A stretch of DNA of 31,443 nucleotides from a virus. The DNA lies in the IMG/VR virus record IMGVR_UViG_3300017773_000077, positions 1-31,443 of that record; one strand, 5' to 3'. Shown one piece after another: positions 3,250 through 25,966 of the stretch. The notes below the pieces were generated by a model. That model saw only the letters and a list, made by a program, of their open reading frames with translations. It made no database searches and was not told the origin of the DNA. How positions within the stretch are numbered: the stretch's first letter is position 1; every line of letters starts with the position of its first letter. Made by a program: the position numbers and the translations under genes.

Positions 3250-6200
3250 ATGGCAAAGCAGATAAAGATTGGACTGGACAAAGTACCATCTCCAGTCACG
3301 AAGCAGTTTACGCAACTCGTAGATATCGAGGGTACGAAGCTTTTTGATGCCGCAGGCAATCCGCTTGTAACAGAAGAAGAAGCTAGTATACAGGAATTTG
3401 CGAATAGCAATAATGCATTGTCTGTATTTGCCAATAATACGCCCGTACAAGGCGGTAATATTCCTATAGTTGAGCAGTTTCCTGAAACATCTGATGTTAG
3501 TTCTTCTCTTTTAGGTATACCAAGATCAGAAGAGCAACTATCACTTTTCTCTGATGTCGCATCCTATGGACTAGACGAAGATGCTTGGGAAGAGTATACG
3601 TTTGCTGATGCAACAGTTCCATATCAGTGGTATCAAAAAGAGCATCCTATTCACGGAAGAAGATCGAATCCTACTTTTAATGAAGGTTCTACAGAGCAAG
3701 CACTTTTTCTAAAAACATTTCCTTCTCAATATTCTTATCCTCAAGGACCAAGGACGCTAATGGCATCTGATCCATCGGGTGGGTTCAAAAGATATATGAA
3801 CTTCATTGCTTTAGGCAGATGGTTTCATAATGAGTTTACATCAAGAGGATTTCCAGAATTTGCTGATAGATGGTTCTTAGATCCTACTTGTGCTAATGTG
3901 ATTGATAGAAATGACCCAGCAACCATATTGACTGACGGACAACTTGATTTTATAAACGGATCGCAGTTAACCTTTAATCAAAATACAGCATTCTATGATG
4001 TTGATTACGGCAAAGACGACATTCAAGATTCTTTTGATGCTATCGAAAGATGGACATTCTTTTTTCAAAAAATTAAAAATGGTGAAGACTATTATCCTTT
4101 TAACGCATCTGTAGGAAGATTTAAAGAAAACGCTGATCCTGCATATTCAAAAATTGTCTCATTTGCTACAGGTACTGAAGTGTTACCTGGCGGTAGTAGC
4201 ACTAGATTTCAAGTAGCACAATTAGAAAGCAAGAGAGCGTTTAGATATCAGCCTGGTCGTGCCAGTGGATTTACATTTGGCTCTAGAATGACCAATGATC
4301 CTATTTCTTCCGCTACTGTTTGTGAGTGGGGATGTGCAAATGAAACAGACCAATATATGTTTCAGTTGAAAGGATCACAGTTTAATATTGTTAGACGAAG
4401 TACAATTCCTATGCCTCAAAAACTTTTAGAGAGACAAGGACTAACAATTGACGATCAATCAGATCAACCTATCTATGTTAGAGGTTTAGCAAATAGTACT
4501 CCTTTATTTGAAACAATTATTCCTAGATCAAAGTGGAATGGAGATGCCTTACTTGGTGTAGGAGATTCTGGCTACATACTTTCATTCGAAGATGTTACAA
4601 TGTACAAGATCGAGTTCTCTTGGTATGGTGCTATCGGTGCTAAATTCTATGCTTACATACCTTCTGGAAACGGAGACGCTAGATGGGTTCTTATGCATAC
4701 ATTCGTTATCGAAAATGGATTAGGACAACCGATATTACAGAATCCAGACTTTAAGTTTAAATATATCATCTACTCAACAAATACTGCAACTATACAATCT
4801 CCTATCTGCCTATACAAATATGGTAGTAGTTACTATATTGATGGGGGAGATGAAGGAACGCAGAGACTTTCTACAGTGACATCCTTACCTAAAGTTGTCT
4901 CTCAGAGAACTCCTCTTTTAGGACTGCTTCCTAAAGATGATATTTTAAACTCAGATGGATTAGCTGTTAAGAATACTAAAAAATCTTATCCTACAACAAT
5001 ATCTGTTAACGCTAAAAAAGATTGTAGAATTGATTTAGTGGAAGTACTAGGTTCTCGTGATGGAGTGCATTTTAACTATTCTCCTTCATTGCATATGAAC
5101 GGCAGACATCCTAGAACAAGAGACTTGACATTCAAGTACACATTAGGAGATACTATATTACAAATTATACAGCCCGCTACTCCTCAGATAACAGGTACAG
5201 TTTATGTAAACAATAACGAAACTACACTTAACGGAGTAGGCACTCAGTTCCAAACTGACCTTCAGGTGGGTGATGTTTTGTTGATTGGTACAGATACCAC
5301 GACTGAACATAAGATAGATAAGATAAACTCACAAACAGAAATAATATTATCTGATGCATATACTAACTCGGGATCTAGTGACATACTGCAAGCAAACGCA
5401 GTTACCGCTCAAAAAGTTCAAAGACTTAATCCTGAAGATAAGTACGCTAAGATAGTAGCTGATGGTATATATGGCAATTATGTGACAACAAGTGTTTCAA
5501 ACGGTAAGTCTTCACCTGTGTTAAGAAGAAATAGTCCTACACACGATTTTGCACTAAAAGAAAATATTGAAGTTAGGGATTCATTGAAGGTAGACGGTTC
5601 TAAATTAGATCGTACACAGAGTTTTACTGGTAAACTTGTAAACTATCATACAGTCGTAGGATCTGATACTCCTATTACTTCAAATAAATTTAAGATACAC
5701 TGGTTAAATCCTAATCAGTATGAAGGCACTTATGGCAATAGACATTTTGCAGAATTTGGTATAGGCGTTACTCCGCATAAGCCTGTTGAGCCAAATGGAA
5801 GCGATATATTCGATAGACTACACTTCGAAACTTCACCAGGCAACTTTAAAGAGTTCGATAGAGAAGAATATCCTTTCTTAGAATATGTGCATGATAGAAC
5901 ACGATTCGATGAGCGTGAAAATGCAGAGTTATTTGAGTGGCATGGAGCTTACGGCAGAGGTAGATTTGAAGTTGATCCCAGAAATCCTCTTCCGAGATTT
6001 GGTTCTAGCGGAACATCTAATCAGAACAGTAAGCAATCTGGATTCATTTCAAGTTTTCAAGGAAAGGTTGAAGTTCAAGAGTTTGCTGTTAGTACCACTC
6101 TGCTAGAGCCTTTGCCTGCAGACGGCACTAAGTATTCTGCAATGAAGAGACTCGTGTTTACTTCTTCACAAGTTCCAAGTAATAGCGAGATAAAATTTAC

Positions 6201-7047
6201 AGGTACTCTTGCTGATGGAACAATTGATCCTTCTACAGGTATATCTGAGATTGGTGCTTCATTCGCAGGAACAGGATTCTTCTTTAGAAGTGATGTGATT
6301 ATTCCTAGCGGTGGCGGAAACAGATATGTTTATGTTGATGCAAACATAACAAGTAATGCAGATGGAGTTACTCTAGGAACTAATTTTGGTCCTACAGTTG
6401 TTACTGATGCGGGAGATACAAAGAATATTCAAACTAAAGTCGTAACACTGTTTGACGATTTTCAGGCACAGTCTTTTGATGATGACGGTACAGAGTTATT
6501 TCAGAATCATAAATTTTCAGTATCTCAAGCGATTGCGTTTAACGATCAGCCTTTATATCCAGTATTTGCATTGCAAGATAATGCTAGAATAAATAGTATT
6601 GTCATAGAAGAAATATTTGAAGACGGAAGATCGTTAGTTCATAGTCCAACATTTAAGAAAGACGATTCTAACTATAATAGTGCTATAACAATAGACAGTT
6701 CTATTCCTGCAGAAGATCGGTCTCTAACTGGCGGACCTACATCATCACAAGCAACATCATCTTCAGTTTTGACGCCTACATCTTTTAACGAAGAAGATAG
6801 ACAGTCTGGACTTAGATTTGATAAAAGTTGTTTAAATCCTTTGCGAGCAGGAACAACGATATCGTCTTTCTATGCTGAAGGCGGTGACCCAACTAAGATA
6901 GACATGAGTAACCTTTTTGCTCAAGATAGAAAAGGATTATCTCCTGGATTATTAAATAATACAGCGTTATTCTTCATCGCCACAGAACTAGACACAGGTT
7001 CAGCATCTGATACTGTAGAAATTGCTTTAACAATTAAGGAACAATAA
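3250..7047 (+). CDS. Large virion structural protein, paralogous module with upstream gene
   Basis: This is a 1265-residue protein. The ATG at 3250 is preceded by GGGAAGAG ending 9 bases upstream. Residues about 445-542 (IEFSWYGAIGAKFYAYIPSG ... GNGDARWV ... SSYYIDGGDEGTQRL) clearly match residues 601-716 of the upstream protein, so the two share a duplicated module. Residues about 647-712 read as a small beta module (ITGTVYVNNN, NGVGTQFQTDLQVGDVLLIG, then a Lys/Ile-rich strand and TEIILSDAY), a pattern common in phage tail and baseplate proteins. The stop TAA overlaps the next start by one base (TAATG at 7045-7049), suggesting translational coupling. The position corresponds to T4 baseplate wedge and pin genes. 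I infer a baseplate-peripheral or fibre role; the enzymatic or binding activity is unknown. Confidence 0.75.
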   Translation: MAKQIKIGLDKVPSPVTKQFTQLVDIEGTKLFDAAGNPLVTEEEASIQEFANSNNALSVFANNTPVQGGNIPIVEQFPETSDVSSSLLGIPRSEEQLSLFSDVASYGLDEDAWEEYTFADATVPYQWYQKEHPIHGRRSNPTFNEGSTEQALFLKTFPSQYSYPQGPRTLMASDPSGGFKRYMNFIALGRWFHNEFTSRGFPEFADRWFLDPTCANVIDRNDPATILTDGQLDFINGSQLTFNQNTAFYDVDYGKDDIQDSFDAIERWTFFFQKIKNGEDYYPFNASVGRFKENADPAYSKIVSFATGTEVLPGGSSTRFQVAQLESKRAFRYQPGRASGFTFGSRMTNDPISSATVCEWGCANETDQYMFQLKGSQFNIVRRSTIPMPQKLLERQGLTIDDQSDQPIYVRGLANSTPLFETIIPRSKWNGDALLGVGDSGYILSFEDVTMYKIEFSWYGAIGAKFYAYIPSGNGDARWVLMHTFVIENGLGQPILQNPDFKFKYIIYSTNTATIQSPICLYKYGSSYYIDGGDEGTQRLSTVTSLPKVVSQRTPLLGLLPKDDILNSDGLAVKNTKKSYPTTISVNAKKDCRIDLVEVLGSRDGVHFNYSPSLHMNGRHPRTRDLTFKYTLGDTILQIIQPATPQITGTVYVNNNETTLNGVGTQFQTDLQVGDVLLIGTDTTTEHKIDKINSQTEIILSDAYTNSGSSDILQANAVTAQKVQRLNPEDKYAKIVADGIYGNYVTTSVSNGKSSPVLRRNSPTHDFALKENIEVRDSLKVDGSKLDRTQSFTGKLVNYHTVVGSDTPITSNKFKIHWLNPNQYEGTYGNRHFAEFGIGVTPHKPVEPNGSDIFDRLHFETSPGNFKEFDREEYPFLEYVHDRTRFDERENAELFEWHGAYGRGRFEVDPRNPLPRFGSSGTSNQNSKQSGFISSFQGKVEVQEFAVSTTLLEPLPADGTKYSAMKRLVFTSSQVPSNSEIKFTGTLADGTIDPSTGISEIGASFAGTGFFFRSDVIIPSGGGNRYVYVDANITSNADGVTLGTNFGPTVVTDAGDTKNIQTKVVTLFDDFQAQSFDDDGTELFQNHKFSVSQAIAFNDQPLYPVFALQDNARINSIVIEEIFEDGRSLVHSPTFKKDDSNYNSAITIDSSIPAEDRSLTGGPTSSQATSSSVLTPTSFNEEDRQSGLRFDKSCLNPLRAGTTISSFYAEGGDPTKIDMSNLFAQDRKGLSPGLLNNTALFFIATELDTGSASDTVEIALTIKEQ

Positions 7048-10000
7048 TGCCAATTTATAGAGGTCTAAATGTTGCAAAGGCTTTGAGTGATATTGATGAT
7101 TCAAGACAAGCCTTAAAAAACTTAGGACTAAAGAGAGAAGATTTTGATTTGATTGCAGGACTAACTAGTTCTGAAGTAGGCGTTGGTATTAGCGATTTCC
7201 ATAACATGGCAGGCTTAACCAGTGACCAAAAGAAAGAGTTAGAGTCTTTATCAAGTGCCGCTGATGCTACAGAAATAGCATTTCTAAGAATAAATGATAT
7301 CAGTACTCCACTAAAATTCAATCTTAGATTAAATAATAACAAGCTTGCTGGTGGAGCAATCAAATATAATTACCTAGATTTTTCTGCCACTCCAGTTGGA
7401 GGAAATTTTGTTGAAAAATCAGCAGACATTTCTACTTCTAGATTGTCTTCTTGGTCGCCTGTAGGAGATCCTAATCCAGACGACTACATTCTTTATGGCG
7501 GTGATATTAAAATTGTAGGCGATAGACTTTCTTATACAAAACTTTCTACCACAGAAGCTCCTATTGCTAGAACTTTTAGAGCAGAAGTTGCTACTCATGT
7601 AGCTACAGCAAACTTAAACTCGGGCGTAAGCGGAGACGGACTTCAATCGATGTATCTAATGAAGGGTATACCGTTAGAGTGGGAAGGAGTCTTTGAAGAG
7701 ATATCTCTAAAGGCTGCCGTAACTCCTATAGCTGATGCAGAAGGAAATATTCCTATCACATGGAGAATAACAAATCTGCAAGCTCCTGCTGGATCATATA
7801 ACTCTGGAGATGGCTCGAACAACACAGCAAGTATAGGAACAGGAACTTTAGGTAATCCAACAGAATACAAGATAGCTCCTCCTGGATATGCTAAAAGAAA
7901 AATTGAGTTCTTCTATGATCCAGCGAAAGTGCTTAGACTCGAAATGACATCAGCTAACATATCAAAATGGACAAATGTATCTTTGCCCAATCTTAACTGG
8001 CTAAATTTAAGTTTTAACGATTTTCCTGTTATGCCAGAATTTAGATCAGACGGTACAGCCGCTAAACAAGGCTTTGATGGTGGTGCTGGTCTTGCTCCTA
8101 CGTTAGATAGATTGTATATAACAGCAAATGATTTAGGAAGAGGAAACGATGCTCTGTTAGGCGAAGGAGATCGTGAGAACACAGGTAACTCATCACAACA
8201 ATTGAATAGATTGCCTCTTACTTTAAGATATTTGATTGCTAATGGTTGCTTTACTGATAATGTCGATATCGATTTGACTGACTATGAAAATTTGATTTAT
8301 CTAGACCTTTCTTCAAACTTTACAAGAGAGTTAAGAAGACCACAGACGGCAACAAATAGTCCTGCAACATATAATCCTAAAAAGAGAGTTTTCTTTTCAG
8401 TCGAGACTGACACATCGTGGGCGTCATCGGCAGCATCTAATCAAATGTTTATTGCGGGACATGGCTTTACCACTAATGGTACTCCAGTAAGATACGACTA
8501 TCATGCTGATAGTTCAGGAACTATGGCTGAACCCATAAGTTCATTGTCTGCTAACACGACATATTATGTTCGTGTAATCAATAACAATGTTATAGAATTG
8601 TATAATGCTGAAGGAAATGCAACAAGTACAGGCAGTACTACTGGTAGACGATCTATGAGTGGCGAAGGTGGAGATGGACACGGTAAGCTACACTCTTTGA
8701 TTCAGTGGGACACATCTACCAATAAAGCTTACATGGCCAGCACAACGAAAGGTATAGATCAGTATAGAATTTATAATCAGGGTTATAGTAGACTAACTCC
8801 TGGTGTGTATAATAGTAAGAAGTTACATTTGTTCTATGCGAATACTAATGATGACTTGGCAACAAATTCAGAGACGCCTCACTATGCATCTACTGCTAGT
8901 ATAGATGGAACAGTAACCGCGGCTCAAGCTAAAGCTAAGTCTTCAGCAGATATGGCAATTCCTAAAATCGAAGCAGATACAAACTTTAGATATTGGTATA
9001 GTGCGTATAATCCTCACAATATAGTAGATTTTAGCGGTAACACAAGTATCTATCGTTATTATCAATATCGAGGTGATATTGATACGAGATATGAAGAAGC
9101 TGAAACTACATTAGACGGAAAGTTCACAGGATGTACAAGTCTTACACACATTCATGTTTATAATTGTTACGGCACATCTGGCAACTTTGAAACAAGCAAT
9201 TTGTTCCAGAATTTGCCTAATCTGAACTATGTAAACACTCTTGTCTGGGGTAGAGGTGGATTGAAGGGAAGAATCACAGATAATATGTTTAACGGATCAC
9301 CTAAAGTGGGAGACTTCACTGTAGGTGGCGATCAGATGAATCAGTTTACGAATGACACTTTCGGAACTAGTGGCGTTGGCAGTGTTAATACAGGTAAAGC
9401 ACTATATAATGCCAACCCTAATATGAGACACTTCAGAGTGGGGAACAATAGATACGGATCTGGAACTCTTGTGCAAGAAGAGGCAGGAACACACGACTTC
9501 ATTTGGCCAACAAATGACAAAATGAGAACTCTATACTTCTATGCTAATAATCTTAGAGGAACATTCCCAAATGTATTCAACAGTTTTAAATTCTTATCTT
9601 ATCTACAACTAGGATACAATGCTCCTTGGATGAGAGTTAGAATGGCTCAAAGTAAACAAATATATAAAATTGCATACAACCATTTGAGTAATTCTGGCGT
9701 TGACGGTAGCGGTCATGGCGGCAGCAATAAAGATCGATTGACTACGCATGACTACAAAGCAATAGGCTGGCAAGTACAAAGTGAAGCTGACAATATTGCG
9801 GCTGTGGGAAGCGTTTTCGGAGCAGAAGTTGCAGGAAATCCCTCTACAAATCACGCATTCAAGTTACAGCACATACCTGTGGCCACTGGCAATCCAAACA
9901 ACTATATTAGAAATAGATATTATAGAATTATGAAACTTGGTAATACAGATTGGAATGCTTTGACTGAAGGCGGTAATAGTAGTCCGTATCTTGGACAGAA

Positions 10001-10607
10001 GATAGAGTTCAAGGCTTCAAAAGTAGGCAGTATATCATCGAGCGATGCTGGTACTGATCCAGGCGAAATGATGCCATACTCTACTTACGCATCTTTAAGG
10101 TCTTTGGGATTAACGGGTACATTCCCAACATTTAATCAGACGATGACAAATTTAGGGGGCTTATTTATCTACCAGAACAACTTTACTGGTCAGTGTCCTA
10201 AGATAGATGCGCCAAAACTAACAAGATTCTATGCGAATACTAATAAGTTCATTGGCTCTATACCAGATTTCTCAAATTGTGAAAAGCTTAAACAAATTAG
10301 ATTGCATGATAATAAGTTAAGTACATTTACCGCAGGGTTCTTAACAGGTGCCGTAAGGTTAGAATCACTAGATTTAAGAAACAATGTATTAGAAGCAAGT
10401 TGTCTGAGAGAACTTTTAATTGATCTGATTGAAAATTACACGAACAGAGAAAGAAGCGGAGTGACAGTAAACTTAAAAGGACAGAGTGGAGCAAACAGAC
10501 TGCAAGAAAGTTCTAAGTTTGACGGAACTAGTGGGGAAAGTTCTACTGCCGCAAAACTAGACTTTTTAAGACAAGTAGCAGGCTGGTCTATACTTCTAGA
10601 CTCATAA
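7047..10607 (+). CDS. Leucine-rich-repeat tail fibre/adhesin-like protein
   Basis: This is a 1186-residue protein. The ATG overlaps the previous stop and TAAGGA lies 6 bases upstream. The N-terminus (ALSDIDDSRQALKNLGL, about residues 12-28) looks like the docking segment of phage fibre/baseplate proteins. Leucine-rich repeats are visible in blocks: about 295-450 (LPNLNWLNLSFNDF; NLIYLDLSSNF), 690-760 (CTSLTHIHVYN; LPNLNYVNTLVW), 825-870 (MRTLYFYANNLRGTFP) and 1013-1120 (LTRFYANTNKFIGSIPDF; LKQIRLHDNKLS; LESLDLRNNVLE). The last block has the LxGxIP-like form. Between the blocks lie two beta modules, about 467-529 and 952-1000, that recur in other proteins here. The C-terminus (VNLKGQSGAN ... 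FLRQVAGWSIL) resembles the cap that ends many bacterial and phage LRR proteins. LRR domains bind proteins or glycans, so I infer a host-recognition or adhesion role in the virion. The LRR assignment is firm; the location in the virion is inferred from context. Confidence 0.8.
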   Translation: MPIYRGLNVAKALSDIDDSRQALKNLGLKREDFDLIAGLTSSEVGVGISDFHNMAGLTSDQKKELESLSSAADATEIAFLRINDISTPLKFNLRLNNNKLAGGAIKYNYLDFSATPVGGNFVEKSADISTSRLSSWSPVGDPNPDDYILYGGDIKIVGDRLSYTKLSTTEAPIARTFRAEVATHVATANLNSGVSGDGLQSMYLMKGIPLEWEGVFEEISLKAAVTPIADAEGNIPITWRITNLQAPAGSYNSGDGSNNTASIGTGTLGNPTEYKIAPPGYAKRKIEFFYDPAKVLRLEMTSANISKWTNVSLPNLNWLNLSFNDFPVMPEFRSDGTAAKQGFDGGAGLAPTLDRLYITANDLGRGNDALLGEGDRENTGNSSQQLNRLPLTLRYLIANGCFTDNVDIDLTDYENLIYLDLSSNFTRELRRPQTATNSPATYNPKKRVFFSVETDTSWASSAASNQMFIAGHGFTTNGTPVRYDYHADSSGTMAEPISSLSANTTYYVRVINNNVIELYNAEGNATSTGSTTGRRSMSGEGGDGHGKLHSLIQWDTSTNKAYMASTTKGIDQYRIYNQGYSRLTPGVYNSKKLHLFYANTNDDLATNSETPHYASTASIDGTVTAAQAKAKSSADMAIPKIEADTNFRYWYSAYNPHNIVDFSGNTSIYRYYQYRGDIDTRYEEAETTLDGKFTGCTSLTHIHVYNCYGTSGNFETSNLFQNLPNLNYVNTLVWGRGGLKGRITDNMFNGSPKVGDFTVGGDQMNQFTNDTFGTSGVGSVNTGKALYNANPNMRHFRVGNNRYGSGTLVQEEAGTHDFIWPTNDKMRTLYFYANNLRGTFPNVFNSFKFLSYLQLGYNAPWMRVRMAQSKQIYKIAYNHLSNSGVDGSGHGGSNKDRLTTHDYKAIGWQVQSEADNIAAVGSVFGAEVAGNPSTNHAFKLQHIPVATGNPNNYIRNRYYRIMKLGNTDWNALTEGGNSSPYLGQKIEFKASKVGSISSSDAGTDPGEMMPYSTYASLRSLGLTGTFPTFNQTMTNLGGLFIYQNNFTGQCPKIDAPKLTRFYANTNKFIGSIPDFSNCEKLKQIRLHDNKLSTFTAGFLTGAVRLESLDLRNNVLEASCLRELLIDLIENYTNRERSGVTVNLKGQSGANRLQESSKFDGTSGESSTAAKLDFLRQVAGWSILLDS

Positions 10608-11789: not shown

Positions 11790-14700
11790 TTACTTAGGCT
11801 CAACGTGCCTACTATTTACTAGAACTCTGTAAGTCTCTTCAGATCCGCCTGAAGGAGTATAACATATATCGAATCGACCATCGGGCTCTTGTGCTTGAGC
11901 CTCTGATTCACTACCTCTATTTGCGGCATCGCTTGTCTGCTCTGTAAATTCGACATCTTCTAGAGACAGTGCTTCTCCTAGTCTGGTGAATGTTATATCA
12001 GGTAGACTACCATTACCAGTTACATTTGACCAAGATCCACCGCTATAGTGTTCTACTGAGAAGTTTCCAGTACTGCCGTCTACAAAATCTACCTTATATA
12101 TAATTCCATCAGAGAATGTTGACAATACAGAGCCTGTATTCGCTCCTTCAGCTTTTATTAAATCTCCCACTTTAACTACGGGTTGCGAAGGAGAAAACCC
12201 AAATAAAATATTAGATCCTAGAGTGGCAGTAAATTTAAAGTCTGATTTCGTATTGTAGCTTAGTTTTTTGAATGATAATTCTTTAACTTCTAGATTTGGA
12301 AAACCATCAGTCGTTAACAATCCTTCAGTGTAGCTACCAAAAGGTGGAGCAGTGTTCAAAGGAATAACGCAATACTCTCTATTCTTTCTGAGTTCGGTAA
12401 CTGATCCAGAATAACTACCCGAAGGAACGATTACAAGAGTTGCGCCTGGATTAATTGTCTGAGCAAGATTTACTTGAGCACCACTTTCATTTTTCAATCT
12501 AATCATTTTCTCGCCACTACCGCCAGTAAACTTTTGGACTTTAGTAGCAGTTCCGCTAAGACTACTTTGATTATCTTGAGGTATAGCCGGATTAAAATAT
12601 ACTCTATCGTCATCAGCTATTCTTGTGTAATTAGTATCTGTCAGTTCAATCTCGTCTTGACTATTTGAAGCTTGTGTTTTTACCTCTACTCCAAATACTC
12701 CTGTACACTCGTAAACACCCGTTATATCATTCAAGCCTCTACTCGAATATATTGAAGCAATGCCATGAGTTGCAGATAATGTTGCATGATTGACAAGAGT
12801 ATTTCTATTCGCAGTTAAACTTGGATGGTTACTCACTTGAAGTTTTAATTGAGTTGCGGCTGTAGGTGCAACAGAGGCATCACTGTCATTAAGATATGTA
12901 ATTTTCTCAACCACATAAGGTCTATCGTTTACACAATGGCCTGTTGCTGATAGGGATATTGCTCCGTAGTAATAAACTAAGTCACCTTCTACTACATCTA
13001 ATATTGATCTTTTGAGTGTATCGTTTGTTCCGTTGACGACTCTAATTGTCAACTCTGTGTCAGACACTCGGGATGCTTTATATGTTCCTACTAGTCCTTC
13101 ATTTTTAAGATGAATAAACTCTTTTACTGCGTTTAAAGGTATGTTGGCGCCACCAACAGATCCAATATCTGATGATATATAAGCCTTTGTACTATCAATT
13201 TTCTCTAAGAGTTGAAACGAAAATACTTTATTATTAGCGTTTGTCCAGCCAGCATTCGCACCATCGTAAGCTGTTATGAATGTAAGCACATCTCCTTCTT
13301 GGACATTAGTGAATGGCGAATTCGCATTCGAAGGATCTCTTTGTAAAGTGCCAGCCGTATTTGTCAGCTTAGCCACTCTTATAGGGTTATTGATCTGACC
13401 TGCACCACTATCAAAATCGGGAAAAATATCTCCAGTGGCTTGTTTTGCATCATACAACATCATAGATATAGTATCATTTACAACTAGTTTTGCTGTAGAA
13501 TCTTGTTTTGTCACTTTAGCATGATTGTTCACAAAGTATGGGAAAGTATATCTTCCAAAATCATCACTAGATCCGTCAGTTGTATAGAAATATGAATATG
13601 ACAGCGGTCCACTGCCACTGCCAGTATCGTGTCTGAATATTTTACTTTCTAGCAATTGCTCTTGACTATCGTTTGGTTCGTACCACCAAACACTGTAGCG
13701 TATCTTTCTTCTTTTACCATTTGCTTGCAAAGGAGTTATAAAAATCGTACCTGTTCCTAGATCATATTCTGATCTATCGTATTCGAATTCGAGAATATCA
13801 GATCCAGTGGCGCCTGCATCCGCATCAGTTTTAGCGTAGTATCTGTAATCTCCCATTACAGCATCATATTTACGATAGACCTCTGTAACATATAGTTCTA
13901 TTCCATTTATTTCTACTTCATGATTCTCACAAACTCTTCTATAATCATCTTCTTCATGTAACTCAATTAGAGTTACATTATCGACAGTCGAATAACTACA
14001 CTGCTTTAACGATTGGAATGCAAATGCATTTACGCCTTTTAAGAATTTCCAGTTACCGTCATCGTTAACATCTTCTTCTATTGAGAAGAATCCATTTATT
14101 AAAAGTTTAAACGAGAAAAATCCACTTTGATATCCTTCCCAAACAATACCGCCTTGCGTGTTAGTAAAATCTGGGTGAAGTGTTCCTACTAACTCAAGTT
14201 GACCGTCAGACCACAAATCTACACCCGTAACTAAATCTAGTAAGTTAGCGGTATCATTCTTCTTCGTATAGAACTTGTTTACTGGTAAATCAGTTGAATT
14301 AGGATCTAAATTTTCAGCAACAGATGCTCCTTCGCCACTAGGTAATGTTTGGTTTCTCAGATATACCCTTACAGCTATCGCACCTGAGAATGCTCCAGTA
14401 GGAGTATGTGTTACATGGTCTCCTATCGACCAATGTTCTAACGCAAAAGCATCTGCAACAGTTGTTTGTGTAGCACCATTGTAGATAAACTGTTGTCCTA
14501 CATAAGGTATACCCTCTACTCCTATATCTTTCCACTCTGAAGCATTAGAAGAGACTGTTCCTAGTTTTAGAATTGTGTACATTTTATTCGCAACAAAATT
14601 ACCCATTGATTTTGCGGGTATTACTTTGTTGTTACCTGATGCAGTAGCAGTTGCGGTTGGAGTAAATCTAGTACCTATGGGTATAACTAATTGTAATGTA

Positions 14701-15644
14701 CTAGTATCACCAAAATCAGCAGTTAATGTCTTTTGTGTTGATAAAGCCGCATCTGTGTATAACTCAATTCTATCAGTATCAGTAGTAACTACTTTTACAA
14801 AGAAAATATCACCGTCAGTAAATCCACTACCTTCGGCGCCACTACCACTTTGATAGACCACTTTGTTGCCAGTTACAAATGAATGTCCAACAATTGTGAT
14901 ATAACCAGTAGCTCCAGCACTTACATTTGCGTTAACAAATGATTCAGTAGAAGTGCTTAGTGTTGAATTAACTGCTGACCAGTCGTAAGTTCCGTCTGCC
15001 TCTACTATAACACAAGGAGTGCCGCTAGTTATAGATGTCGTTTCTAGAGTTGTATTAGCTACAGGAGATTGATCTCTGAGACTTCCCGTGGTGTTACCGT
15101 ATAGTGAGTTACAAGTTATTTGTAAGTTATCAAAATTCATGTCCGAAGCACCAGCAATAACTCTGTATGTGTTGCCTTGACGACTTTGAGTTGCGTTTAT
15201 TTCGGCTTCTGGATAGTTTACTGTATTCTGATTAAGTCTATCTTCTGATATGATAGAAGCACTAGGACCTGAGCCTCCGTTTATCCAAGGCGGATCACCC
15301 AATGCTACTTTGAAATTGTTTATATGATCTTGAATTGTTACTCTAGGCTCGACATCTACTGATGTGGTATCGCTTCCCACTAGAGTGCCTTCTATAGTAG
15401 TTCCAGCAAGTTGAGTAAATTCTTGAGCGTTTCCGCTTACAGTTAGTCTGTCACCTAAAGGACCGTCAGCTATCCCCACCAATGGTAAAATATCATCAGA
15501 TGTGAATCTTAAAGCATTTCCGTTTGCATCTACTTGTGTAGATATATTATCCAATATATTGTCTAGTGCGTTCTTGGGATCAGGTATATCTGATAAGTTT
15601 TTATCTGCTCTGGCACCAAATTTTATATACTTTGTTCTTGACAT
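11790..15644 (-). CDS. Large modular fibre-like virion protein, only minus-strand gene in window
   Basis: This 1284-residue protein is read leftward from the ATG whose complement is at 15642-15644, with GGAAC about 6 bases upstream. The N-terminus (GARADKNLSDIPDPKNALDN, residues 10-29) is the docking-type segment also seen in two neighbouring + strand proteins. Residues about 250-305 (IVGHSFVTGNKVVYQSGSG ... DRIELYTDAALS) and 349-400 (MYTILKLGTVSSNASEWKDI ... YVGQQF) are beta modules that recur in the LRR protein, gene 18 and gene 15. Several weaker copies of a VGD/EGD-plus-YxV pattern follow (for example VKVGDLIKAEG ... DGIIYKVDFV near 1150-1200). The length, the absence of membrane segments and the repeat-like beta modules fit a tail fibre or baseplate appendage. 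It is convergent with the gene on its left and divergent from the one on its right, and it has its own late promoter octamer. Receptor specificity is unknown. Confidence 0.72.
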   Translation of the reverse strand: MSRTKYIKFGARADKNLSDIPDPKNALDNILDNISTQVDANGNALRFTSDDILPLVGIADGPLGDRLTVSGNAQEFTQLAGTTIEGTLVGSDTTSVDVEPRVTIQDHINNFKVALGDPPWINGGSGPSASIISEDRLNQNTVNYPEAEINATQSRQGNTYRVIAGASDMNFDNLQITCNSLYGNTTGSLRDQSPVANTTLETTSITSGTPCVIVEADGTYDWSAVNSTLSTSTESFVNANVSAGATGYITIVGHSFVTGNKVVYQSGSGAEGSGFTDGDIFFVKVVTTDTDRIELYTDAALSTQKTLTADFGDTSTLQLVIPIGTRFTPTATATASGNNKVIPAKSMGNFVANKMYTILKLGTVSSNASEWKDIGVEGIPYVGQQFIYNGATQTTVADAFALEHWSIGDHVTHTPTGAFSGAIAVRVYLRNQTLPSGEGASVAENLDPNSTDLPVNKFYTKKNDTANLLDLVTGVDLWSDGQLELVGTLHPDFTNTQGGIVWEGYQSGFFSFKLLINGFFSIEEDVNDDGNWKFLKGVNAFAFQSLKQCSYSTVDNVTLIELHEEDDYRRVCENHEVEINGIELYVTEVYRKYDAVMGDYRYYAKTDADAGATGSDILEFEYDRSEYDLGTGTIFITPLQANGKRRKIRYSVWWYEPNDSQEQLLESKIFRHDTGSGSGPLSYSYFYTTDGSSDDFGRYTFPYFVNNHAKVTKQDSTAKLVVNDTISMMLYDAKQATGDIFPDFDSGAGQINNPIRVAKLTNTAGTLQRDPSNANSPFTNVQEGDVLTFITAYDGANAGWTNANNKVFSFQLLEKIDSTKAYISSDIGSVGGANIPLNAVKEFIHLKNEGLVGTYKASRVSDTELTIRVVNGTNDTLKRSILDVVEGDLVYYYGAISLSATGHCVNDRPYVVEKITYLNDSDASVAPTAATQLKLQVSNHPSLTANRNTLVNHATLSATHGIASIYSSRGLNDITGVYECTGVFGVEVKTQASNSQDEIELTDTNYTRIADDDRVYFNPAIPQDNQSSLSGTATKVQKFTGGSGEKMIRLKNESGAQVNLAQTINPGATLVIVPSGSYSGSVTELRKNREYCVIPLNTAPPFGSYTEGLLTTDGFPNLEVKELSFKKLSYNTKSDFKFTATLGSNILFGFSPSQPVVKVGDLIKAEGANTGSVLSTFSDGIIYKVDFVDGSTGNFSVEHYSGGSWSNVTGNGSLPDITFTRLGEALSLEDVEFTEQTSDAANRGSESEAQAQEPDGRFDICYTPSGGSEETYRVLVNSRHVEPK

Positions 15645-17974: not shown

Positions 17975-18982
17975 ATGGCACAGCCAACTAGCAGATCACA
18001 ATTTCAAGAATGGTGTTTAAGAAAACTGGGTAAGCCAGTTATAGAAATCAATGTCGACCAAGGACAAGTTGATGATCGTATTGATGAGGCGCTGTCATAC
18101 TACGCAGATTATCATTTTGATGGTGTTGAGAAAACTTATGTTAAGCATCGAGTATTAAATTCATATGTAGAGTTTGCAACGCTAGAAGAAGGCGACTTTG
18201 TAGTCGGTGAAGTAATCTCTGAGTACGAAGATAATACAACTGATGGTGCGACAGCAACAGCAACAGCAACTATTGTGGCAATCGATGTAACTAATAAAAG
18301 GGTATTCTTCAAAAGACCTTCATTTGGTGATTTTGATGCCACTAAATTTGTATCAAGCCCTGCATTTGCGGCAAAGGTTGGTGCCGCGGCCAGTAATCGT
18401 AGAGCAATAACTACTGCCTTTAAAGGCACTTATGAATTAAGATATATTGAGGTACCAGACAACATCATCGGTGCAATCAATGTATTTGCTCCAAACGGTA
18501 ATGTGTCTCTAGGTACCGGCATCTTTAATGCAAAATATCAGTTTGTATTACACAATCTGCATGACATTAATATGGGGCCTCTACTACACTTTCAGATGTC
18601 GATGCAACATTTACAGTTGATAGAAGAGTTGCTTGTCGGTGAAATTCCTTTAAGATACAATCGTCATATAAATCGAATTAATTTAGATGTAGACTGGGAT
18701 CTGATAGAAGTAGGAAGTTATATTGTAGTAGAAGCATATAATGTTGTAGATCCCAACACATACACAGATGTATGGAAAGATCGTTGGTTACAAAATTACG
18801 CAACTGCAAAAATCAAATATCAGTGGGGTTCAAATCTCACTAAGTTCAATGGTATGACACTGCCAGGCAATGTACAGTTCAATGGAGAACAAATTTTAAA
18901 CGATGCAAGAGAGGAGATTCAAAAGCTAGAGGAAGAAATTATCAATAGCTACTCTTTACCTGCAGTCGATATGATAGGATAG
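17975..18982 (+). CDS. 13: Neck protein gp13 (head completion)
   Basis: This 335-residue protein is the T4 gp13 family head-completion protein, which forms the neck with gp14 and lets the finished head join the tail. The N-terminus FQEWCLRKLGKPVIEINVDQ, followed by QVDDRIDEALSYYADYHFDG, is the family hallmark, and LHNLHDINMGPLLHFQMSMQ is also conserved. T4 gp13 is about 309 residues. Here residues about 67-149 look inserted: DFVVGEVISEYE, a TATATAT stretch, then VTNKRVFFKRPSFGDF. This reads like the VGExI...TATIV...V beta module found in phage structural proteins. The ATG at 17975 follows a TATAAATA late promoter at 17935-17942. The next gene starts 5 bases after its stop, so 13-17 probably form one late transcript. 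Confidence 0.93.
   Translation: MAQPTSRSQFQEWCLRKLGKPVIEINVDQGQVDDRIDEALSYYADYHFDGVEKTYVKHRVLNSYVEFATLEEGDFVVGEVISEYEDNTTDGATATATATIVAIDVTNKRVFFKRPSFGDFDATKFVSSPAFAAKVGAAASNRRAITTAFKGTYELRYIEVPDNIIGAINVFAPNGNVSLGTGIFNAKYQFVLHNLHDINMGPLLHFQMSMQHLQLIEELLVGEIPLRYNRHINRINLDVDWDLIEVGSYIVVEAYNVVDPNTYTDVWKDRWLQNYATAKIKYQWGSNLTKFNGMTLPGNVQFNGEQILNDAREEIQKLEEEIINSYSLPAVDMIG
18251..18268 (+). repeat. 6-bp microsatellite in gene 13 insert
   Basis: ACAGCA is repeated three times, encoding an alternating Thr-Ala run within the inserted segment of gp13. It is in frame, so copy number changes would not break the gene. Confidence 0.8.
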
Positions 18983-18986
18983 AACA

Positions 18987-20549
18987 GTGGCTAAAAACTA
19001 TTATTTTGAGAACTTCGATAACTCAATGGAGCAATCGCTCATTGAGGACTTGGTTATCGAGTCCATAAAAATCTATGGAGTTGATGCTTGGTATATACCT
19101 AGAACTCTTACAGGTAAAGATGATATTCTCAACGAAGATGATATATCAACATTTAAAAGTGCATTCATGGCAGAAATGTATGTTAAGAGTGTTGATGGAT
19201 TTGAGGGAGAAGGCGACTTCTTATCTAAGTTTGGTTTAGAGATTCGTGATTCTATTACGATGACAATTGCAAGAAGAACTTATGAGTCTGAAGTAGCATT
19301 GTATAATGATACAGTTAGACCTCTAGAAGGAGATTTGATATATCTACCCTTAAACAATAAGATATTTGAGATCCAACATGTGGAACATGAATCTATCTTT
19401 TATCAGATGGGTTCACTTCAGATGTATGATCTCAAAGCAGAACTATTTGAGTATAGCGGAGAAAGATTCTCTACTGGTCAATCATTCATCGATAACTTAT
19501 ATAAAGGTGTTAATACATTTAAAAGCTTGGTGGTTACTGATTACACATATATCGTTGATGCTGATAGCGTTCAGAACTTTCGTGTTAAGCTTTCTAGTTC
19601 CGATAGAGATGTGTTATCAACTAAACCATTAGAACTAGAAACTAATCAAGAGTACATATTTGATTTATCACACTCTTCGCTAACTGGTCATCTTTTCAAC
19701 TTTTATCCTGATGGAGACGGTGCTACAGAGTCTTTCTCGACAGCAGTAAGAACTGGAACAGCAGGTCAAGCAGGAGCAAACTTAAAACTTACTCCTACGG
19801 CTGTAGGTGATCACGACTATAGAAGTTTCAACGGAGCTACGAGAAGAAACTTGTTTGCATATAGTGAAGACCTAGTTGCTGGATTAGCGGCAGGCGTTTG
19901 GCAAGTTAAAGCATATAATCCTGGAGACGGTGCAGATTATCCTACAGATTATCCTACAGTGCAGTCGATAAGTCAAGCCGGTGTCGGTCTAAATGGCACA
20001 GCGACTCGAATTACATTCCCTGCTTCATCTAATACTGATGGAACAATATATCAACGAATCAATCATGATGCCGCTCTAACGCCTAGTCGTTATAAAGCAT
20101 CTATTTGGGTAAGAAATGCTTCGCCTGGTTTGAAAGCATATGTAGCAGTTAATCCAGTAAGGGCTTGGGAGACGGAGTCATTTCTTTTCGATATCGATAT
20201 ACCCGTAAGTAGTGACTGGCAAAGAATTAGTATTCAATTAACTTTCCCTGGTCAAGCTAAAACACCTGTGTTAGCAATTCAGAATACTACTGGTGCCGCG
20301 GGAGCATCAGTAGAAGTTTGGGGAGCCCAATTCGAAGAACGCACCCTTGCGACTATTGGTGATCCTGCTTCAGTATATCAAAAAGTTGAACAGAACTATA
20401 ATGCTAACACAGCGAATGCTATCGGAAGTGTTATGAGAGTCGTTCAACCAGTTTCTGATGCTCTAGCAGATAATGATGCAATAGAATCTTTTGGCGATAA
20501 TCTAATAGATTTCACTAACGCTAACCCATTTGGAGATATGGACTTCTAA
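18987..20549 (+). CDS. 14: Neck protein gp14 with large inserted binding modules
   Basis: This is the T4 gp14 neck protein, the partner of gp13 in head completion. The start is GTG at 18987 with TAGGAT 6 bases upstream. Residues 1-185 are the conserved part (NSMEQSLIEDLVIESIKIYG, AWYIPRTL, FLSKFGLEIRD, LEGDLIYLPLNNKIFEI), and the C-terminal AIESFGDNLIDFTNANPFGD is the usual gp14 end. The protein is 520 residues against about 256 in T4. The extra length lies between: about 186-285 resembles the cupredoxin-like module of marine phages (YIFDLSHSSLTGHLFNF; RTGTAGQAGANLKLTP) with its metal-binding Cys/His segment lost. About 286-460 is a carbohydrate-binding-type jelly roll (RRNLFAYSEDL ... GTIYQRINH ... 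YKASIWVRN ... VEVWGAQFEE). The stop overlaps the gene 15 start (TAATG). Confidence 0.92.
   Translation: MAKNYYFENFDNSMEQSLIEDLVIESIKIYGVDAWYIPRTLTGKDDILNEDDISTFKSAFMAEMYVKSVDGFEGEGDFLSKFGLEIRDSITMTIARRTYESEVALYNDTVRPLEGDLIYLPLNNKIFEIQHVEHESIFYQMGSLQMYDLKAELFEYSGERFSTGQSFIDNLYKGVNTFKSLVVTDYTYIVDADSVQNFRVKLSSSDRDVLSTKPLELETNQEYIFDLSHSSLTGHLFNFYPDGDGATESFSTAVRTGTAGQAGANLKLTPTAVGDHDYRSFNGATRRNLFAYSEDLVAGLAAGVWQVKAYNPGDGADYPTDYPTVQSISQAGVGLNGTATRITFPASSNTDGTIYQRINHDAALTPSRYKASIWVRNASPGLKAYVAVNPVRAWETESFLFDIDIPVSSDWQRISIQLTFPGQAKTPVLAIQNTTGAAGASVEVWGAQFEERTLATIGDPASVYQKVEQNYNANTANAIGSVMRVVQPVSDALADNDAIESFGDNLIDFTNANPFGDMDF
19539..19841 (+). other. Degenerate cupredoxin-like module inside gene 14
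   Basis: Residues about 185-285 of gp14. The pattern LETNQEYIFDLSHSSLTGH, then NFYPDGDG, STAVRTGTAGQAGANLKLTP and a terminal HDYRSFNG follows the order of a beta module common in marine phage structural proteins. Those copies normally end in a YYCxxHxxM-like metal site, which is absent here. Assignment is by pattern memory only. Confidence 0.5.
19842..20366 (+). other. Carbohydrate-binding-type jelly-roll module inside gene 14
   Basis: Residues about 286-460 of gp14. The opening RRNLFAYSEDL, central TATRITFP, GTIYQRINH, YKASIWVRN and closing VEVWGAQFEERTLAT match the well-known phage tail module that runs from RNLLTYSE to VWGAQLEEG. This family is usually on tail or fibre proteins and is thought to bind glycans; here it sits in a neck protein. 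Ligand unknown. Confidence 0.7.
19933..19959 (+). repeat. 12-bp tandem duplication in gene 14 insert
   Basis: CAGATTATCCTA occurs twice in direct succession and is followed by CAG. It encodes the duplicated residues DYPTDYPT within the jelly-roll module, in frame. Confidence 0.85.
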
Positions 20550-21529
20550 TGTTTGGTAATCATTTTTATCACGAGTCTACGAGAAGATATGTTGCTGTAT
20601 TCGGCACACTCTTTAATGACATCGAAATAACAAGAAAGGATAACTCTACTCCTGCGGCTTCTATACAGAAGATAAAGGTGCCTATTAACTATGCTCCTAT
20701 GCAGAAGATTTTAGCTAAACTAGAGCAAGACCCTAATCTTAGATCACCTAGTGCTGTCACATTGCCTAGAATGTCGTTTGAAGTAACGGGAATGACTTAT
20801 AGTGCTGAAAGAAAGTTAACAAGTTTAACGAAACAAGTAAAGGGATCACCTTTATCAGATGGAAGAGTCAATACAATGTATACTCCTGCACCATACGATA
20901 TCGAGTTTCAGTTAAACATTATGACAAAATATAATGAAGATGGAATGAAAATAGTTGAACAGATACTACCTTTCTTCAAACCAGATTGTACTGTAAGTGT
21001 ACAAATGGTAGACGGACTAGGATATGTCGATATTCCTGTCGTATTGAACAGCGTATCTCAAGAAGATACTTATGAAGCAGATTTTCAGACAAGAAGAGCG
21101 TTGATTTGGACACTTAACTTCACGATGAAAGCATACTTCTTTGCTCCCACGCAAACTAAGAGACAGATTAAGTTTGTCGATGTTGATTTGTATCCTCAGT
21201 TGACAGTAGCTGATAATGGTGAGCAAATCGAAATAATTCCTGCTATTCCTACTGCAATGGCAAGCTTGGTAGCAGGAACAACTTACAGAATTTATGATCT
21301 AGGAACGGGATCGTCTACAGAGAATCAATCGAGATGGAATCTCTACCTCACAGGCGATGCAAACACAGGAAACACATATAGAGTTGGAGATCAATTTAAT
21401 GCTCCTGCAAATCCAGCTACAAATGCACCCGCTGGAGCAACAGCGACATTGAAGAGTCTAGACACGATAGACGAGAACGATAGCTGGAAAGCAATGACGA
21501 TAATATCAGACGGAGATGGAACAATATAA
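20549..21529 (+). CDS. 15: Tail sheath stabiliser / tail completion protein gp15
   Basis: This 326-residue protein is the T4 gp15 family, which caps the tail tube and sheath and connects the tail to the neck. Conserved stretches are MFGNHFYHESTRRYVAVFGT, NDIEITRKDN, KVPINYAPMQKILAKLEQDP and the block from LPRMSFEVTGMTYSAERKL. T4 gp15 is about 272 residues. The extra length is near the C-terminus: residues about 238-303 form a module (LVAGTTYRIYDLGTGSS ... SRWNLY ... YRVGDQF) that also occurs in the LRR protein and the minus-strand fibre-like protein. A short acidic tail (DTIDENDSWKAMTIISDGDG) follows and is probably the original gp15 end. The ATG overlaps the gene 14 stop. Confidence 0.92.
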   Translation: MFGNHFYHESTRRYVAVFGTLFNDIEITRKDNSTPAASIQKIKVPINYAPMQKILAKLEQDPNLRSPSAVTLPRMSFEVTGMTYSAERKLTSLTKQVKGSPLSDGRVNTMYTPAPYDIEFQLNIMTKYNEDGMKIVEQILPFFKPDCTVSVQMVDGLGYVDIPVVLNSVSQEDTYEADFQTRRALIWTLNFTMKAYFFAPTQTKRQIKFVDVDLYPQLTVADNGEQIEIIPAIPTAMASLVAGTTYRIYDLGTGSSTENQSRWNLYLTGDANTGNTYRVGDQFNAPANPATNAPAGATATLKSLDTIDENDSWKAMTIISDGDGTI

Positions 21530-23629: not shown

Positions 23630-25966
23630 ATGGCTTTTCAAACAAGTCCAGGCATTAATGTCAGCGAAATCGACCTTACGAATGCTACTCCGGCAGTTGG
23701 AACTACTGAGGGTGCAATTGCAGGTGTATTTCGATGGGGTCCAGTAGGAGAAAGAGTACTTATCTCCTCTGAGCAACAACTAGTGGATCGATTCGGTGCA
23801 CCAGTTAAAATTTATAGCGGTTCGAACTATGAAAATACATGGTCTAACGTAGAAACTTTCTACACCGCGGCAAACTTCTTAGGATATAGCGATGCATTGT
23901 ATGTAACTCGTGTCGCAACATCCGGTCAAACTACAGCTTCTGAGTCAGATGAAGGATTCCAAGCTAAGTATCCAGGTCTTTTAGGTAACTCTTTGTCAGT
24001 ATCTTTCTGTTCTGGTGATGATCCAGGTGGTAACGATGTAGTTGGATTTTCACCAAGTAGTCTACAAACACCAGGCGTAATTACTGTTTCAGACAGTTCA
24101 AGAAATCAAGCATCTATTACTGGTTTGAGTGATGCATCAAGAGATGCCTTAACAAAAGGTACAAAAATAATTCTTAAAGATACTAATGATAATGTTCTAC
24201 AGAAAATGACATTATCAGCCAGCTCTCCTACCACAGAAGGTGGTGCTGTTGCTACAGATGCTACAGTTAAAGATTTCTTATCTGATACTCTACCTCCAGA
24301 TGCTTCAACAAGCGGTGTTGTTCTTCAGTCTGAAAGTGCTGATAGAGACGGTGATGCGAGTGGTGGCGAAAGTGTAGTAGATTTGGGAATAAATGGTAGT
24401 ATCATTAATATTCCGTCTCACGGTTTTACTAAGGGTCAAGCAGTTCAGTATAGTGCTGAAGCACAAGGTGTTGTTGGCGGTCTAGTAGACGGCAAAACAT
24501 ACTTTGTAATTCCTGTAACAGCTTCATCTGGTAAAGGATCAGACGGTAGTGAATTTACTACTGGTGGTTCTGTTACTGGAACTACTACAGGTGCTATTAA
24601 ACTAGCGGCAACACTTGAAGATGCCATGGCTCATACAGACGCATCGCCTAAGAATATTCAACTTACAGCGAGAGCAGGAACAACTTCGGTAGCTTCTAAG
24701 TTAAAGCCATTCACTTCTTTGAACGTAGTTGTTGATTTTGAAGAGAGATTCACAGGTATTATCTCTGATATTGACAGTAACGACTATGATGTTGAGTGGG
24801 GAGATGCTGATCTTTTTGATGCGGCACCTACTGCAAGTAGTATTCACATCGTAGTTAGAGACGAAGATGGCGATATTACTGGCACAGCAGGCTCAATTCT
24901 AGAAGTTTATGAGAATGTTTCAGAAAATCCTAGTTCCACTAAAACAGACGGCACCACAAATTATGCTAGAACCTTGTTAGAACAACAATCTAACTGGATT
25001 AAGATTTCAGATGCTAATATTGGTGGGACTGGATTTACAACAACTAGATCAGGTAACCCTTTAACCGGTGGTGCTGACGGTAACGATGAAGTTGCGGTTA
25101 CTATTGGTGAACTAGCGACTGGTTATGATCTATATGTAGATCCTGCTGATGTAGATATCTCTTTTGTACTTCAAGGTAAGGCTAAAAGTGATCACGTTTT
25201 AGCTAACTACATCATCGATAATATAGCTGAAGTTCGTAGAGATTGTGTAGCGTTTATTTCTCCAGCACTTGAAGATACTACAGTAGCCAATATAGTAGGT
25301 TTTGCTAACTCTGTTACTTCAAGTAGCTATGCTGTTGTAGATTCTGGCTACAAGTATCAGTATGACAAGTATAACGATGTGTACGCATACGTTCCTTTAA
25401 ATGGCGACATTGCAGGGCTTTGTGCTAGAACAGACGATCTAAGAGATCCTTGGTTCTCACCTGCAGGCTATCAGAGAGGTAATGTTAAGAATGTTGTTAA
25501 ATTACTAGTTAATCCTACCAAAGCAGAAAGAGATTTGCTCTACAAGAAGGGTGTTAACCCAGTAATTACACAACCAGGTCAGGGTACTGTATTGTTTGGA
25601 GATAAGACATTTACTGGTGTTACTAGTGCATTTGATCGTATCAATGTTCGTAGACTGTTTATTGTTCTTGAGAAAACAATCAGCCAATCTGCTAAATCGA
25701 CTCTATTCGAATTTAACGATGAGTTCACTAGAGCCCAGTTTGTAAACTTGGTTGAACCATTCTTGAGAGATGTGCAGGGTAGACGAGGCATCTATGACTT
25801 TAAAGTAATTTGTGACGAATCGAACAACGGTCAAAGCGTTATCGATGCTAACCAATTTGTTGGCGATATCTTTATCAAGCCAGCTCGCTCTATCAACTTC
25901 ATCCAGTTGAACTTTGTAGCTGTTAGATCAGGCGTAGAGTTCTCAGAGATCGTTGGTCAGGCTTAA
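23630..25966 (+). CDS. 18: Tail sheath protein gp18
   Basis: This is the contractile tail sheath subunit of the T4 gp18 family, 778 residues against 659 in T4. The N-terminus SPGINVSEIDLTNATPAVGT, followed by GAIAGVFRWGPVGE, is conserved. So is the C-terminal third (PTKAERDLLYKKGVNPV, FGDKT, RLFIVLEKTISQSAKSTLFE, DFKVICDESNN). Residues about 130-460 are the variable surface region, and within it about 258-335 form a module (HGFTKGQAVQYSAEAQG ... GGLVDGKTYFVIPV ... GAIKLAATLEDAM) related to modules in the LRR and minus-strand fibre-like proteins. A strong AAGGAG lies 9 bases before the ATG and a TATAAATA late promoter is at 23571-23578, fitting a highly expressed virion protein. Confidence 0.97.
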   Translation: MAFQTSPGINVSEIDLTNATPAVGTTEGAIAGVFRWGPVGERVLISSEQQLVDRFGAPVKIYSGSNYENTWSNVETFYTAANFLGYSDALYVTRVATSGQTTASESDEGFQAKYPGLLGNSLSVSFCSGDDPGGNDVVGFSPSSLQTPGVITVSDSSRNQASITGLSDASRDALTKGTKIILKDTNDNVLQKMTLSASSPTTEGGAVATDATVKDFLSDTLPPDASTSGVVLQSESADRDGDASGGESVVDLGINGSIINIPSHGFTKGQAVQYSAEAQGVVGGLVDGKTYFVIPVTASSGKGSDGSEFTTGGSVTGTTTGAIKLAATLEDAMAHTDASPKNIQLTARAGTTSVASKLKPFTSLNVVVDFEERFTGIISDIDSNDYDVEWGDADLFDAAPTASSIHIVVRDEDGDITGTAGSILEVYENVSENPSSTKTDGTTNYARTLLEQQSNWIKISDANIGGTGFTTTRSGNPLTGGADGNDEVAVTIGELATGYDLYVDPADVDISFVLQGKAKSDHVLANYIIDNIAEVRRDCVAFISPALEDTTVANIVGFANSVTSSSYAVVDSGYKYQYDKYNDVYAYVPLNGDIAGLCARTDDLRDPWFSPAGYQRGNVKNVVKLLVNPTKAERDLLYKKGVNPVITQPGQGTVLFGDKTFTGVTSAFDRINVRRLFIVLEKTISQSAKSTLFEFNDEFTRAQFVNLVEPFLRDVQGRRGIYDFKVICDESNNGQSVIDANQFVGDIFIKPARSINFIQLNFVAVRSGVEFSEIVGQA

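Follow-up and report, generated by a model that had tools for sequence, protein, structure and literature searches.

Computational analysis of a marine T4-like phage revealed that its head-closure protein gp14 carries an added stretch of ~290 residues between a T4-gp14-like barrel and a conserved C-terminal arm. This stretch comprises a predicted cupredoxin-like module followed by a predicted jelly roll of the carbohydrate-binding module (CBM) type, which is hypervariable and occurs as allele mosaics among relatives. In our preferred reading, to which we assign a probability of roughly 0.6, this gp14 is a closure protein that bears a metal-free spacer and an exchanged, glycan-binding jelly-roll adhesin on the exterior of the neck.

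Architecture of gp14 and its relatives

The window (the whole stretch of DNA that was analysed) is a 31,443-base viral contig fragment whose gene order is T4-like, and the features that concern the neck are located within it as follows.

17975-18982: gp13, in T4-like order around gp14
18158..18430, + strand: gp13 insert, residues ~62-152, highly variable in relatives and missing from 247-aa gp13 relatives
18987..20549, + strand: gp14, head closure Hc2 / neck protein, 520 aa, GTG start (Pfam, PHROG_460, T4 gp14 fold match)
18987..19496, + strand: conserved gp14 core (N-terminal arm, helix, beta-barrel), residues 1-170 (85-90% identity among two-module relatives; T4 gp14 match)
19518..19847, + strand: module 1, residues 178-287, cupredoxin-like by the profile of the single-module copy, ending at the expected copper-ligand loop
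19848..20381, + strand: module 2, residues 288-465, predicted CBM-type jelly roll, hypervariable and apparently exchanged among relatives (CBM folds, RcGTA profile, mosaics)
20448..20546, + strand: conserved C-terminal arm, residues 488-520 (alignments; ADN..IE.F.DNLIDF..NPFG)
20549-21529: gp15, followed by terminase, sheath, tube and portal
21248..21448, + strand: gp15 extra segment near the C-terminus, residues ~234-300 (the Pfam gp15 domain spans 5-223 only)

The window gp14 belongs to the T4-type neck proteins (head closure Hc2), as its N-terminal barrel is homologous to theirs and its gene lies in the order gp13-gp14-gp15. It matches Pfam T4_neck-protein (2.7e-36, residues 4-175), PHROG_460 head closure Hc2 (5e-72) and the fold of T4 gp14 (9lu4; Z 10.3, residues 28-157 of the window protein), and its C-terminal motif DNLIDFTNANPFG is conserved, as is the N-terminal part. 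An earlier reading of the letters alone (the sequence-only reading) had proposed that gp14 is enlarged by an insert with its N-terminal part and C-terminal tail kept, and this is borne out by a length of 520 aa as compared to 230 aa in close relatives that are free of the insert. That reading put the insert at residues 185-460 (19539-20366), a span that does lie inside the added stretch, and alignment has refined the limits to ~178-287 for module 1 and 288-465 for module 2. The predicted model of the whole protein is of low confidence (pLDDT 59.3, pTM 0.34).

Two viral-contig scans yielded 61 distinct gp14 sequences, some of them partial; these are the best-scoring matches to the window, so the proportions of architectures among them do not represent population frequencies. 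The sequence-only reading had to reckon with the region being present in all close gp14 relatives, and it is not, as a bare gp14 of 230 aa carries no insert (L011/L012). Module 1 alone is found in proteins of 329-346 aa, the commonest architecture in this sample, and modules 1 and 2 together occur in proteins of 498-531 aa (the window, L003, L004, L027, L028 and L030-L034), as well as in L108, which was found in a later scan. In a fourth architecture (L015-L023; total ~330 aa), a different module of ~100 residues is inserted after gp14 residue 41 and matches tail-fibre and baseplate PHROG families. Because relatives without the insert, with its first part only and with both parts all exist, the insert is no chance feature, and because module 1 is common among near relatives, it is not peculiar to the window phage; module 2 is the rarer addition. 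In a phylogeny of the core, the two-module sequences require two changes and the bare forms are nested within the module-bearing part, which suggests that modules were gained or lost more than once, with branch support too weak to force this conclusion. The insert is absent from gp14 of the named phages phiM12 (217 aa), DLP6 (251 aa), T4 (256 aa), Cr30 (261 aa), Mosig (272 aa) and Melnitz (287 aa).

Elsewhere in the window, the sheath protein gp18 (23630-25966), at 778 aa, greatly exceeds the 496 positions of the PHROG sheath profile that it spans and also seems to harbour a large insert. The open reading frames at 11790-15644 (- strand, 1284 aa) and 7047-10607 (+ strand, 1186 aa) gave no PHROG match; by eye, the latter is leucine-rich-repeat-like.

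Predicted folds of the two inserted modules

The fold of module 1 was approached through the copy present in single-module relatives, which was predicted with good confidence (pLDDT 83.6). Its listed fold matches comprise cupredoxins as well as larger enzymes with cupredoxin domains, namely three-domain nitrite reductase (Z 9.4), rusticyanin (Z 8.4, rmsd 2.6), and plastocyanin and auracyanin (both Z 8.0), so that the homologue model shows the Greek-key beta-sandwich of a cupredoxin. The window copy is tied to this model by a profile match of 66.6 bits over positions 1-119 of 142, which stops where the copper-ligand loop starts. The loop with its Cys, His and Met ligands is absent from the window copy, and where relatives possess it, as in YYYINPTTIGMGE, it is without Cys or His; most relatives have neither residue. 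Module 1 is thus predicted to retain the cupredoxin fold but not the metal site, and is not expected to carry copper. The sequence-only reading had described this part as cupredoxin-like with its metal-ligand segment missing, and the profile link and the absent loop agree with it. PHROG matches tie module 1 weakly to phage tail-fibre and structural proteins, and a PDB sequence search with the module found no significant match.

Module 1 ends at the ligand loop and module 2 begins there. A nested arrangement, in which module 2 would be inserted within the ligand loop of module 1 and the final cupredoxin strand would resume behind it, was considered and discarded, as the segment that follows module 2, when added, performed no better than shuffled segments. 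Module 1 also matches a structural gene of Synechococcus phage metaG-MbCM1 that is labelled gp14 neck protein, apparently wrongly (L109, JN371769.1 60364-67566); the gene is 7.2 kb long, so the match does not count as a genuine gp14 with module 1.

For module 2, residues 286-453 of the moderate-confidence model adopt a CBM-type jelly roll that matches several CBM families over 116-135 residues with Z of 9-11.2 (porphyran CBM 8xmz, Z 11.2; CBM4-2, ~10; CBM29, ~9.4), as well as the phage tailspikes CBA120 TSP4 (Z 9.6) and K2-2 (Z 8.7). A profile built from ten copies of the module retrieved one PDB sequence, the head-spike fibre Rcc01080 of RcGTA (E 4.9e-4), with which it shares the motifs NL..S.D, W.R and WGAQ.E that mark this type of phage spike and fibre module. 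The RcGTA head spikes bind the capsule of R. capsulatus (PMC10218006, PMC7296036). Homologues were also detected outside gp14, in a virion structural protein (L224; hhalign 98.5%) and in a PHROG_5939 tail protein (L226; 95.5%); within the six related contigs that carry module 2 in gp14, all of them fragments, the module was seen only in gp14. The Pfam family CBM_4_9 (PF02018) scored 14.5 bits on module 2, below its curated cut-off of 25.9, and direct tblastn against annotated phages returned no match; it is through profile searches and viral contigs that the module is connected with other phage proteins. The jelly roll of fibre type that had been claimed for the second part of the insert is therefore what structure prediction and fold search returned, and we infer from its fold and homologues that module 2 binds a glycan.

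Variation in module 2 and the proposed role of the neck

Conservation differs sharply along the protein. Between the window and the other two-module gp14s, identity is 85-90% in the core, 36-42% in module 1, 28-38% in module 2 and 40-43% in the tail. L032, L033 and L034 have core proteins that are 100% identical and module 2 copies that are only 76-84% identical, and in sliding windows L034 and L032 share 96-100% identity over most of the flanks and gp14, which drops to ~76-85% across module 2 and recovers afterwards. Among L032, L033, L034 and L108, variable sites per 100 nt number 4.4 in the core, 5.8 in module 1, 25.0 in module 2 and 9.3 in the tail. The DNA of the core, module 1 and tail is identical between L033 and L108, and of the 17 aligned differences between them over 4.5 kb, 14 fall within gp14 nt 1245-1287, a stretch of 43 nt in module 2; at each of these 14 sites L108 has the L032 base. 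The simplest reading is that segments of module 2, down to single loops, are exchanged between co-existing phages, and on these patterns the module appears to behave like an exchanged adhesin cassette. A diversity-generating retroelement was judged unlikely by eye, as the 14 clustered differences also involve bases other than A and reproduce the existing L032 allele. The main caveat is that the contigs are metagenomic and some mosaics could be assembly chimeras; an identical copy of the L034 gp14 turns up in another sample (L106), and this speaks for genuine alleles.

Other parts of the neck vary as well. The gp13 insert, ~90 residues in the window, is a companion accessory segment, and its region falls to 64% nucleotide identity between L106 and L108 in one 200-column bin, as compared to 96-99.5% in the gp14 core bins. 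A further segment of ~90 residues is present inside the gp13 insert of L004 and L036. Among relatives, gp15 is 265-267 aa long where it is bare and 315-333 aa long in the others. In the cultured Pelagibacter phage Mosig, gp15 (L111 3319-4917) reaches 532 aa, twice the usual size; a LamG-like assignment of its extra part was set aside, as it drew only a weak laminin-G match in the PDB (E 0.005) and no Pfam match, and this gp15 may be another connector that carries a binding-type module. Over 12 kb, L227 and L228 have two more variable spots besides gp13 and gp14, which makes gp14 one of several hot spots; at these two (~5508-5893 and 7893-8093 of the L227 reverse complement) identity is 58-74% and the surrounding DNA is otherwise similar.

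Jelly rolls serve purely structural roles too. The modules could accordingly form a structural collar that packs at the neck-tail joint and strengthens the gp13-gp14-gp15 interface without binding the host, much as the jelly-roll collar of phage Milano crosslinks neck and sheath (PMC10491603), and the extra segments of gp13 and gp15 could contact them there. We consider this unlikely, because a module that shares 28-38% identity among its carriers, and is exchanged by itself amid near-identical core and flanks, does not resemble a fitted interface, and near relatives manage without it. Somewhat less probable still is that a permissive linker in gp14 collects near-neutral domains of low effect, their diversity reflecting weak constraint and recombination. 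Modules do come and go, with other relatives carrying a different one at a second gp14 site, and in most comparisons dN/dS is higher in module 2 than in the core; however, the module 2 values mostly lie at 0.2-0.55 and none of the copies found contains a stop codon, which points to a module that is constrained despite its raised dN/dS. Positive selection was not indicated, as dN/dS was below 1 in nearly all comparisons. Least likely of the three is that the modules stand in for fibritin whiskers and bind to the retracted tail fibres of the phage itself. The window gp13 does lack the T4 fibritin-binding domain III and no fibritin is named among the ORFs scanned, but gp13 of the five non-T4 relatives compared also lacks domain III and their gp14 is without these modules, the best module 2 homologues are capsule-binding spikes and CBMs, and a genome fragment cannot show that wac is absent. 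The sequence-only remark that the visible region holds no recognisable wac agrees with the ORFs scanned; its link to the gp14 modules is weak, given these non-T4 relatives and the fragmentary state of the window.

Returning to the accessory adhesin as our preferred reading, the conserved barrel and C-terminal arm would perform the usual head closing and tail docking. The T4 head is closed by a hexamer of gp14, which in the virion docks on gp15 through its residues 178-256 (PMC12270204). The insertion point lies near the start of this segment, at the neck-tail joint, so modules carried on the linker between barrel and arm should project outside the neck there, and by analogy with the T4 hexamer there would be six copies per virion. 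Module 1, cupredoxin-like but devoid of its metal site, would act as a spacer, and the jelly roll would most likely bind a polysaccharide or other glycan on or around the host, raising the rate of encounter or keeping the particle in place until the tail fibres engage. Recombination would swap module 2, or single loops of it, between relatives, as in fibre tips. A neck decoration for surface attachment had been suggested from the sequence alone, and this idea is now better supported, because module 2 varies, is exchanged like an adhesin and resembles the capsule-binding RcGTA fibre; the binding itself we infer.

A broader and more tentative proposal, which we hold to be somewhat less than an even bet, is that in this T4-like group the whole neck (gp13, gp14 and gp15) is an adhesin platform with optional, recombining binding modules. 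Host range or particle attachment would then be set partly at the neck and changed by gp14 and gp13 loop swaps, independently of the tail fibres. Surface binding is normally assigned to tail fibres, and head-closure proteins are viewed as conserved sealing parts. The combination of a near-invariant core with a hypervariable, exchanged jelly roll of the capsule-binding spike family suggests that a contractile phage can incorporate attachment functions in its essential neck, and a search for receptor-binding proteins that is confined to tail fibres may overlook some of them. The natural gp14 alleles, near-identical outside the module, provide material for testing the role of the neck in marine phage adsorption.

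Comparison with known systems

T4 gp14 is homologous to the window protein in its core and C-terminal motif, and the T4 neck is decorated too; however, T4 does so with wac on gp13 domain III, and its gp14 is without such modules. Rusticyanin, plastocyanin and auracyanin have the fold predicted for module 1 in single-module relatives, whereas the copper-ligand loop of module 1 is degenerate or missing. The jelly roll of RcGTA Rcc01080 is homologous to module 2 by profile (E 4.9e-4), and its spike likewise sits outside a phage-like particle, where it binds the host capsule (PMC10218006, PMC7296036), but Rcc01080 is a separate spike fibre at the head vertices, whereas the window module lies within a T4-like phage head-closure protein. 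In phage Milano, which is contractile, collar gp13 surrounds the neck with jelly rolls and has a decorating domain that resembles glycan-interacting proteins (PMC10491603); it is a separate, pentadecameric, disulfide-locked protein, in contrast to modules built into gp14.

Lactococcal 936 phages carry accessory CBMs on the neck passage structure (NPS), the major tail protein and Dit (PMC6669499), and domain exchange is documented for neck passage proteins (PMC10684548). As in the 936 and P335 NPS, the window phage has (predicted) accessory carbohydrate-binding modules at the neck that vary between phages. The NPS is, however, a collar protein in its own right, which is non-essential and has a BppU-like N-terminus and a trimeric coiled coil, whereas here the carrier is gp14, with the N-terminus of a T4 neck protein. 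In the part of the open literature that was covered, we found no earlier report of a binding module within a head-closure protein. Accessory binding modules at the neck are thus already known from the lactococcal NPS, and their placement inside the head-closure protein would be the new element.
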